Positions 6,294 through 8,748 of a stretch of 64,000 nucleotides of DNA are shown one piece after another. A program made the translations under genes and the position numbers. This DNA is from Halobacteria archaeon HArc-gm2 (lineage in GTDB: Archaea; Halobacteriota; Halobacteria; Halobacteriales; Haloarculaceae), in assembly GCA_025517465.1 (NCBI GenBank), contig JAOPKE010000001.1, positions 620,001 to 684,000 on the forward strand, given 5' to 3'. Every line of letters starts with the position of its first letter. Positions within the stretch are counted from its first letter, which is position 1. Under the pieces are notes generated by a model. It worked only from the letters and a program-made list of their open reading frames with translations, was not told the DNA's origin and did no database searches.

Positions 6294-6305
6294 ACCGGCG
6301 TCACC

Positions 6306-6540
6306 CGCTCGCTCGTGTCACTCGCTCGCGTTCTGATCGGATTCGGACGGAACGATTTCGTAACTCCGCTCACCCATCTCGTCCTCCCGCGACCACCTTT
6401 TTCCCCTTCGGGTTCGCTCGCGGTGCTCGCGAACCACTCGGGCAAAAATCTGGACCAAAAACCGCTCGCTCGCGTTACTCGCTCGCGTTCTGATCGGACT
6501 CGGACGGGACGATTTCGTAACTCCGCTCTCCCATCTCGTC
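6306..6540. repeat. Direct repeat: duplicated 3' end of the DUF5796-like gene
   Basis: Two 78-bp copies, 6306-6383 and 6463-6540, are offset by 157 bp and differ at about five positions. The second copy is the last 22 codons of the gene ending at 6475, plus 12 bp beyond the stop. The first is an orphan copy downstream of that gene. The spacer contains CTTTTTCCCC-type pyrimidine runs. The orphan has no start codon and looks like a scar of a partial tandem duplication. Confidence 0.8.
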
Positions 6541-6921
6541 TTCTTCGAACACGAACACGCGTCCGTCCACCTGGTCCAGGTCCGCCTCGACTTCGACGCG
6601 CATCTGGTGGTCGCGCACGACGACGCCGGGGAACAGTTCGTCCTCCTCGTCGTCGAGCATGATCCGCCCGACGCCGGTGTCGTCGAGGATGTCGTCGTGG
6701 GTGTTCAGGTCGTTCACGTAGACGAGGATGCCCTGGGTCTCAGAGGCGTCGGTGACGAGCACGTGAGCGTCCTTGGCTGGCGCCGTCCTGACCGTCTCTT
6801 CGGCTTTCCTCGGGACGCCGTGGTAGAAGACGGTCCGGCCATCGTTGTACTCGACGGCGATGCCGTCCTCGGTGAGTTCGACGCCGAGCGTGTCCGGGGC
6901 GACGTCGTTGCGAGCGCTCAT
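6475..6921 (-). CDS. DUF5796-like haloarchaeal protein
   Basis: A 148-residue acidic protein starting MSARNDVAPDTLGVEL, with mostly beta structure (EDGIAVEYNDGRTVFYHG, then VLVYVNDL and DDELFPGVVVRDH). I recognise it as a haloarchaea-restricted family of unknown function (DUF5796), with no visible catalytic residues. The inner ATG at 6921 is preferred to one nine codons upstream because the family normally begins with this MSxxNDV segment. The 3' end is repeated downstream. It is divergent from the transposon region. Confidence 0.75.
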   Translation of the reverse strand: MSARNDVAPDTLGVELTEDGIAVEYNDGRTVFYHGVPRKAEETVRTAPAKDAHVLVTDASETQGILVYVNDLNTHDDILDDTGVGRIMLDDEEDELFPGVVVRDHQMRVEVEADLDQVDGRVFVFEEDEMGERSYEIVPSESDQNASE

Positions 6922-7040: not shown

Positions 7041-7058
7041 CCCGTCGTTTACGACGGG
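7041..7058. repeat. Left-side subterminal hairpin of the TnpB element
   Basis: Perfect 7-bp stem CCCGTCG / CGACGGG closed by a TTTA loop. It has the same loop as the right-end hairpin, and its flanks (GAGAG before, GAATCCTGTC after) resemble those of the right end. It may be the left end or the relic of an earlier right end. Confidence 0.6.
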
Positions 7059-7094: not shown

Positions 7095-7238
7095 TTACTG
7101 CTGGTCCTGAGTCTCCAACGCTTCCAGCCCTGCTTCTAACACGTCTGCATAGGCTTCCGAGAGGTCCAGATCGTTCGCTTCTGCGTAGTCTTTGACTCGG
7201 CCACCGAGTGTGTGTGAAATGTCGATGTTCGGGCGCAT
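7095..7238 (-). CDS. 47-aa regulator-like protein divergent from tnpB
   Basis: A very short gene whose product starts MRPNIDISHTLGGRV, followed by a long helix (KDYAEANDLDLSEAYADVLEAGL). A short strand followed by helices is the plan of ribbon-helix-helix proteins, so it could bind DNA as a dimer. I believe similar small genes accompany other haloarchaeal IS1341-type elements. The ATG at 7238 is fixed by a minus-strand TATA box (GTTTATAC) 28 bp upstream. The gene shares its promoter region with tnpB and a perfect 7-bp inverted repeat lies between them, so autoregulation and control of tnpB are a reasonable inference. Confidence 0.6.
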   Translation of the reverse strand: MRPNIDISHTLGGRVKDYAEANDLDLSEAYADVLEAGLEALETQDQQ

Positions 7239-7247
7239 GACGAAAAG

Positions 7248-7270
7248 ACTTTTAGACTAAAAGTATAAAC
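7248..7270. promoter_or_regulatory. Interlocked divergent promoters with palindromic operator
   Basis: A perfect inverted repeat, ACTTTTA-GAC-TAAAAGT (7248-7264), lies between the two start codons. CTTTTAG (centre about 7253) is 28 bp before the tnpB GTG at 7281. GTTTATAC read on the minus strand (7263-7270) is 28 bp before the regulator ATG at 7238. A protein bound to the palindrome would cover both TATA regions. Confidence 0.6.
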
Positions 7271-7280
7271 ATCTGTTGTC

Positions 7281-8676
7281 GTGAAGCGCACCAACACGTT
7301 CGCCGTGCGACCGCTTTCCGATACCAGAGAGCAACTGCTACGGGGTCTGTTGGATGCCTCTGCCGCTCTCTGGAACGAAGTCAACTACGAACGCCTCATG
7401 CGGTACTGAACGGAGCAAAGCTCCGCGATGTACGCAAATCTTCGATTTGCTTGACAACGACGAGGATGGCTTTGAGGGTAACGTTTGGGACGCCAATACA
7501 GGCCGGCTCGAAGGTCGGTACAAAGGCGTGCTTGGTGCATCAACCGCTCAACAGGTTGTTCGCAAGAACAGCGAAGCGTGGCGCGGGTTCTTCCGTCTGA
7601 AAGACCAGTATCACGACGAGTCGAACACGTCGGTCACGGAACACCCGGAACCGCCGGGCTTCCGCGGCAACGAGGACGATGGACGGCAACTCAAAGGCGT
7701 CATTCGCAACACGTCGTACACCGTCGAATGGGGCGACCGCTCCCGGCTCGAGAAACTGGTTGGGAGTGAGTTGAAAGACCGACACGACCACATCGGGCGT
7801 CTCCGGCTGGAAATCGCTGGCGACCCGACGTGGCCCGACTACGAGAAACAGGGTCGGTTAGACCTGTGGTACGACGAGACTGATTGCACCTTCCGAGCTT
7901 CGCAACCCGTGACTGTTTCTGACGACGTCCGGGACACTCCACTGGCCGACGAGACGGCCGCTCTGGATATCGGTGCGAACAATCTCGTCGCCTGTACCAC
8001 CACGACCGGCCAGCAGTACCTCTACGAAGGCCGGGACCTGTTCGACCGCTTCCGCGAGACGACACGAGCGATTGCCCGGTTGCAGTCCAAGCTACGGGAA
8101 GGCAGGTACAGTAGCGAGCGAATCCAGCGACTGTATCGCAAACGAACCCGCCGTCGTGACCACGCCCAGGAAGCGTTGTGCCGTGACCTGCTGGAACGGC
8201 TTTACGAGGACGGCGTCGATACGGTGTATATCGGTGGCCTGACCAACGTACTCGAAACGCACTGGTCGGTCGACACCAACGCCAAGACGCACAACTTCTG
8301 GGCGTTCAAGAAATTCACCGAGCGACTGGCCTGTACCGCCGAGGAATACGGTATCTCGGTGGAAGTACGGTCGGAAGCGTGGACCAGCCAGGAGTGCCCG
8401 CAGTGTGGTTCGACAGACAGGACGACACGGCACCAAGACACGCTCACCTGCCCGTGTGGATTCGAGGGACACGCCGACCTTACAGCATCAGAAACGTTCC
8501 TGAAGCGGCATACCGCGAAAGCAGTCAGGCCGATGGCACGGCCCGTGCGGTTCGAGTGGGACGACCACACCTGGTCGGAGTCACCACGCTCTCCCGAGAG
8601 GGCACGTCCCAAAGAACAGCGCACAGACCCGAGTACCGTCCACCGTGACGGGAATGTTGCGGCCGGGGAATCTTAG
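7281..8676 (+). pseudogene. tnpB: tnpB-like RNA-guided nuclease gene, frameshifted near the N-terminus
   Basis: The first 42 codons from GTG 7281 ([20 protein letters not shown]...NYERLMRY) match the usual start of haloarchaeal TnpB and then meet a TGA. The rest of the protein continues in another frame from about 7456 ([14 protein letters not shown]) to the stop at 8676. Between them sit two back-to-back hairpins that look inserted. The body has RuvC-I Asp in ALDIGANN, a zinc ribbon (CPQCG...CPCGF) and RuvC-III Asp in HADLTASE. The RuvC-II segment reads [10 protein letters not shown], with no acidic residue at the usual place. TnpB proteins cut DNA guided by RNA from the element's right end. 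This copy is probably inactive, though a shortened product from an inner start cannot be excluded. Confidence 0.8.
7411..7450. repeat. Twin hairpin insert inside tnpB
   Basis: Two perfect hairpins lie 8 bp apart: CGGAGC-AAA-GCTCCG (7411-7425) and GCAAATC-TTC-GATTTGC (7434-7450). They fall exactly where the tnpB frame breaks. The net insertion is one more than a multiple of three. Small palindromic units like these occur elsewhere in the window (27217-27338). Confidence 0.65.
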
Positions 8677-8702
8677 ACTCGCTGAGACTCCCACGGAGGA
8701 AA

Positions 8703-8722
8703 CCGCGCCGTTTACGGCGCGG
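8703..8722 (+). repeat. Right-end hairpin of the TnpB element (guide-RNA scaffold end)
   Basis: Perfect 8-bp stem CCGCGCCG / CGGCGCGG with a TTTA loop, 27 bp after the tnpB stop and followed by AGGATGTCA. In TnpB systems the transcript covering the 3' end of tnpB and this right end forms the guide-RNA scaffold, with the guide read from flanking DNA. That role is inferred from position. Confidence 0.55.
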
Positions 8723-8741
8723 AGGATGTCATCGCCACAGG

Positions 8742-8748
8742 TAAATAT
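8742..8748 (+). promoter_or_regulatory. TATA box for shikimate kinase
   Basis: TAAATAT is centred 26 bp before the ATG at 8771, giving a leaderless transcript. It supports the inner ATG as the start over the long upstream extension, which would run back into the transposon end. Confidence 0.6.

Follow-up and report, generated by a model that had tools for sequence, protein, structure and literature searches.

The 64-kb stretch of haloarchaeal DNA analysed here (64,000 nucleotides; hereafter the window) carries a tnpA-less, IS1341-type element of the IS200/IS605 family, and this element probably encodes its own autorepressor, a predicted ribbon-helix-helix (RHH) protein of 47 residues that would limit the TnpB of the same element. 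The subject bears on how transposons keep the amount of a DNA-cutting enzyme, TnpB, within tolerable limits. Haloarchaea harbor tnpB elements by the dozen, diverse and low in copy number, and stringent control of copy number has been suggested, without an explanation, for those of the IS1341 type (PMC3119063). The original prediction, which had proposed a self-regulating partner of tnpB acting through a perfect palindrome, was right in kind; the operator found here is a different one, and the scope of the arrangement is wider.

The 47-residue protein and its linkage to tnpB

The gene of the 47-residue protein occupies positions 7095–7238 of the reverse strand with its ATG at 7238, and tnpB opens on the forward strand with a GTG at 7281, 42 bp away; the divergent arrangement described earlier was confirmed. 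The gene is supported by its open reading frame, by homologues beside tnpB, by its pN/pS ratio, and by a structural model. The pN/pS ratios of 0.13 and 0.17 in the two spacer groups A and B (described below) indicate a real protein under purifying selection.

The AlphaFold2 monomer (pLDDT 86) has 2 helices (residues 9–21 and 26–45) following an extended N-terminus, which is not assigned as a strand in the monomer, and the modeled chain agrees with the strand-helix-helix unit of ~45 residues that defines the RHH superfamily. The top Foldseek matches were mostly RHH proteins, including CopG, MatP, SvtR, Arc, and antitoxins, with TM scores of 0.6–0.8 and E values of 0.2–1, which are weak for a 47-residue chain. 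Neither the protein nor its family members matched a curated Pfam or NCBIfam model above cut-off; the profile matches below cut-off were to TraM (0.0032), MatP_C (0.06), and FitA (0.14) for family members and to ArtA (0.03) in the PDB. In the presumed strand RPNIDIS, the hydrophobic residues I5 and I7 alternate with the polar residues N4, D6, and S8 across 21 members, a pattern that suggests one buried side and one DNA-facing side. For the DNA-binding protein of the original prediction, an RHH fold is backed by the AlphaFold2 model and the Foldseek matches. In plasmid records the gene is called "hypothetical protein" or is unannotated, and annotators would gain a name for it; named homologues are RR_RS22180 of Haloarcula marismortui pNG300, which lies next to RR_RS00485, and NATPE_RS22845 of Natrinema pellirubrum, next to NATPE_RS18615.

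Homologues occur in 110 of the 391 genomes of the class and in 42 of its 86 genera. None was seen outside the window's order in a phylum-wide sample of 247 genomes, and phage records contained no match. Nearly all of the listed loci were retrieved, and of the 150 homologues that we placed, about 133 are divergent from a tnpB gene (132 by script, to which reading of L060 added the second copy of that locus). The great majority of homologues thus adjoin tnpB; a distribution mainly away from it would have spoken against such a regulator. The gap between the RHH gene and tnpB is mostly 34–68 bp, and in 8 loci it is 266–270 bp. The non-divergent exceptions are mainly 9 long proteins with an RHH-like N-terminus, contig ends, and truncated copies. 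These long proteins (~350–490 residues; L061–L066 and L146–L148), which lie away from tnpB, begin with an RHH domain 39–55% identical to the 47-residue protein, and the remainder of the 2 tested gave no confident Pfam match.

The reverse search, which covered 36 genomes partly chosen for already having matches, returned 68 tnpB matches; the RHH gene accompanied 33 of them, a second small gene (described below) accompanied 10, and neither was present at the other 25. These 25 related tnpBs count against a dedicated repressor. Some tnpB loci with neither small gene have tnpA upstream instead, and tblastn located tnpA only at loci that lack the RHH gene (L152 and L160).

The operator array between the two genes

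Haloarchaeal transcripts are mostly leaderless, and their promoters carry a CGAAA BRE and a TTWT-type TATA box (PMC4983044). In agreement with this consensus, the probable tnpB promoter (7241–7255, forward strand) is composed of a BRE-like CGAAA (7241–7245) and a TATA-like TTTTAG (7250–7255; −31 to −26 of the GTG), and the probable TATA box of the 47-residue protein gene is TTTATA (7264–7269, reverse strand; −31 to −26 of the ATG). As noted earlier, each TATA box lies at the same distance, about 28 bp, from the start of its gene, a spacing that suggests leaderless promoters for both.

Three direct octads, GACGAAAA, GACTTTTA, and GACTAAAA (7239–7262), which begin right at the start codon of the small gene and were overlooked in the original prediction, place GAC or GTC at 8–9-bp steps and form the predicted operator. 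The octads enclose the CGAAA and TTTTAG of tnpB and adjoin the TTTATA of the regulator gene. Of the spacer, this array is the part that sister elements conserve. Sixteen divergent spacers contained 37 GAC/GTC pairs at 8–9-bp steps, compared with a mean of 1.9 and a maximum of 8 in 3000 shuffles. Because the triplet was picked after the data had been seen, an independent control matters here: the GAC array occurs in none of 19 promoters of related tnpBs without an RHH regulator. The operator columns hardly vary, against differences of 45–53% at synonymous sites. About eight groups of spacers can be distinguished, in line with the N-terminal type of the regulator, and in all of them GAC or GTC at 8–9-bp steps straddles a TATA-like sequence located approximately −36 to −26 relative to tnpB. 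The array thus lies over the tnpB box in every group, and its overlap with the RHH gene's own TATA box is clear in group A and unclear in group B.

The perfect 7-3-7 inverted repeat reported earlier between the 2 start codons, ACTTTTA-GAC-TAAAAGT (17 bp, 7248–7264), is present and overlaps octads 2 and 3. It had been placed between the 2 TATA boxes; in fact, the tnpB box lies inside the left arm and the small-gene box extends outward from the terminal base of the right arm. By itself, the palindrome is weak evidence: the window holds 17 dyads with perfect 7-nt arms 3 bp apart, and some perfect 7-nt dyad (spacer 0–6) arises in 3.5% of the sequences obtained by dinucleotide shuffling of the 42-bp spacer. 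It is perfect in only 1 of the 27 distinct group-A spacers, 14 of which fall within a relaxed pattern, and most other groups lack it; the dyad of group B is another one (AGACATTT...AAATGTCT). These counts rule out the palindrome as the conserved operator; the feature that every group of sister elements retains at this position is the GAC/GTC octad array. The palindrome looks like a by-product of the more regular octads, and its perfection as such may be due to chance. To extend chance to the whole arrangement, that is, a fortuitous palindrome beside a spurious open reading frame, is scarcely credible: the shuffles allow for the dyad, but the more than 130 conserved gene pairs and the pN/pS of 0.13–0.17 refute a chance origin of gene and operator.

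The operator varies together with the regulator. Similarity between operators correlated with similarity between the RHH proteins over residues 1–14 (0.71), compared with 0.39 for the RHH C-terminal half and 0.39 for the TnpB N-terminus; after correction for the TnpB N-terminus, the partial correlation with the RHH N-terminus was 0.66, a value reached in 0 of 300 permutations. The array therefore appears, at the level of sequence, to track the predicted DNA-contacting end of the regulator. The physical adjacency of operator and RHH gene start may contribute to this co-inheritance; the TnpB start is as near to the operator as the RHH start. In 2 natural swaps, L033 (type-B TnpB with type-A regulator and operator) and L076 (type-A TnpB with type-B regulator and operator), regulator and operator stay together, and the operator accordingly follows the regulator better than it follows TnpB. 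About eight natural regulator–operator pairs are available for studying how RHH proteins shift in DNA specificity. The source genome contains a single such operator, so control by the 47-residue protein is probably local.

The swaps also bear on the type II RHH antitoxins (FitA, MazE, and CopASO type), which share the modeled RHH fold and an expected autoregulation with the present protein. By analogy, the small protein might bind the TnpB protein and restrain the nuclease, with operator binding secondary. The fold matches include RHH antitoxins, and a DNA-cutting protein is encoded next door, but we consider this improbable: the partner is a divergent nuclease gene and not a toxin gene in a co-directional operon, the protein of ~45 residues has no additional toxin-binding tail, and type-A regulators occur with type-B TnpBs and the reverse, the operator tracking the regulator better than TnpB.

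Five of the 8 loci with a gap of ~267 bp were read in detail (L019, L022, L025, L032, and L044; gap 266–270 bp). Each has a two-zinc-finger gene between the RHH gene and tnpB, encoding a two-CxxC protein of ~75 residues, and the stop codon of this gene overlaps the RHH start codon. The zinc-finger protein is probably a second regulator or a partner. With this gene inserted, the GAC array remains beside tnpB. Its position there, together with its location at the promoter, some 200 bp inward from the left end and away from the element ends, argues against the reading that the array serves element movement or a host factor, with the small protein as a transposition accessory instead of a transcription regulator. 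That these elements have no tnpA, and that no mover has been assigned to elements of the tnpA-less kind (PMC3119063), speaks for such a role, which we nevertheless regard as very improbable.

The second small-protein family (44–48 residues; consensus IRIEFDDDEQYERLKELKKxHGLTWKGLLLEG) was found at L170–L199 and at L150, L151, L154, L155, and L158. Scripted placement put it divergently beside tnpB in 28 of 30 loci, mostly with a gap of 41–60 bp, and the adjoining tnpBs, which are of other lineages, are about 46–79% identical to the query. The family has no Pfam match, and its model is RHH-like at low confidence only. The GAC array is absent from its operators, and strong dyads were only slightly above shuffles there.

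A model for the control of tnpB

We propose that the 47-residue protein forms an RHH dimer whose N-terminal strands would read the GAC/GTC triplets, and that several dimers would line up on the 8-bp-step array over the BRE and TATA box of tnpB, up to the regulator's own TATA box. The bound dimers would exclude TBP/TFB from tnpB and, at the edge of the array, from the regulator's own promoter. Because the array covers the tnpB BRE/TATA and reaches the regulator TATA, both promoters would be shut when the protein is present. TnpB would thus be kept low, the level of the repressor would adjust itself, and TnpB would be released when the repressor is absent, for example just after entry into a new cell. 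The earlier idea of a regulator that controls both itself and the tnpB of its own element is strongly supported; the linkage and a conserved array stand, the exact palindrome does not, and repression is what we infer from the position of the array. In archaea, a site over the BRE/TATA usually blocks TBP/TFB, and activators normally bind upstream of the BRE. One array common to 2 divergent promoters, whose position alone gives no sign, might also serve a protein that activates tnpB or toggles the 2 promoters instead of repressing both; with the array covering the tnpB BRE/TATA, this appears unlikely.

Under autorepression, the protein would belong to a known kind. It resembles the small autoregulating RHH repressors (CopG, Arc, omega, ArtA, and SvtR) in its length of ~45 residues, its modeled strand-helix-helix arrangement, and its short repeated operators at a promoter, and the 8-bp operator steps recall the MetJ and omega arrays. 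It differs from the CopG-type repressors in that (i) its partner is the tnpB of the same mobile element; (ii) at least eight operator types co-vary with its N-terminus; and (iii) no curated family covers it. The open-access full-text literature that we searched contained no description of such a dedicated, TnpB-linked regulator. With a dedicated repressor and a readable operator, TnpB control becomes directly testable in culturable haloarchaea.

The original prediction had also suggested a self-limiting switch. Understood as one element type excluding a second copy, this was unsupported: of 48 pairs within genomes, 12 were of the same type where 9.4 would be expected. We therefore rejected an exclusion of same-type copies through the operator, and copy-number control by the regulator stays speculation. 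Tentatively, haloarchaeal TnpB elements might carry dedicated repressors from at least 2 small-protein families with insulated operators, and stay quiet until they enter a repressor-less cell. If so, many unrelated elements could coexist in one genome, entry would bring a burst of TnpB, and an RNA-guided nuclease would be under a switch like that of a phage repressor.

The element copy in the window and its interrupted tnpB

Comparison with sister copies elsewhere set the ends of the element at about 7030 and 8731 of the window (~1.7 kb). The left-end hairpin CCCGTCGTTTACGACGGG (7041–7058), common to sister copies at different sites, is preceded by a CTTTCAAC-like flank. The right end (8703–8731, forward strand), also common to sister copies, comprises a hairpin and a GGAGGATGTCA end, and the flank varies after GTCA(T). 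This right end is expected to be the 3′ scaffold of the omega RNA. None of the Rfam omega RNA families matched it at gathering score; a sub-threshold match to HgcC (E = 0.0036) covered 8560–8744, the right end of tnpB including the terminal hairpin, and HgcC might be an omega-RNA-like family. TnpB, the end hairpins, and the absence of tnpA place the element in the IS1341 group of the IS200/IS605 family; one Y1 transposase is encoded elsewhere in the source genome. The element shares these features, and the omega-RNA-like right end, with the haloarchaeal IS1341 elements, and differs from them in its divergent regulator gene and predicted operator, which are unmentioned in the literature searched.

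The regulator gene, the operator, and both element ends are still intact in this copy, and tnpB is broken. Codons 1–42 (7281–7406, forward strand) align with the start of intact sister TnpBs, and the frame ends at a stop at 7407–7409. A 49-bp twin-hairpin insert, CGGAGCAAAGCTCCG plus GCAAATCTTCGATTTGC (7407–7455, forward strand), which is absent at the same codon of the intact sister L002 and is a single copy in the source genome, accounts for the break. The remaining tnpB (7456–8676, forward strand) is in a different frame from the start and retains the RuvC D, alternative E, and D. The gene is recognised by NCBIfam NF040570 (E = 1.8e-41) and Pfam OrfB_IS605.

In 160 of 160 TnpB relatives, the 2 RuvC aspartates are invariant. 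Glycine occupies the canonical glutamate position, but all of these relatives have a glutamate six residues ahead of the first CxxC, an arrangement reported for Fanzors and for certain TnpBs (PMC10711439). This conserved alternative-E triad makes the TnpB family look catalytically competent, as judged from the residues, and contradicts the notion that TnpB itself is a dead repressor (TldR). The TldRs, which are nuclease-dead TnpB repressors, also control transcription in connection with tnpB; in their case the repressor is TnpB itself, whereas here a separate protein is proposed and the catalytic residues are kept.

The insert that breaks tnpB in the window is one of a recurrent type. Inserts of 2 adjacent hairpins (~45–50 nt) also lie within the loops of end hairpins, in 10 of 62 right ends (L002, L006, L034, L043, L078, L154, L184, L185, L193, and L198) and in the left ends of L002, L013, L016, L022, L030, L127, L130, and L155. 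Their stem sequences vary between copies and the two-hairpin layout is kept. The window also contains an 82-bp direct repeat (6305–6386 and 6462–6543; 93% identity, 157 bp apart), which enters the 3′ end of a DUF5796 gene.
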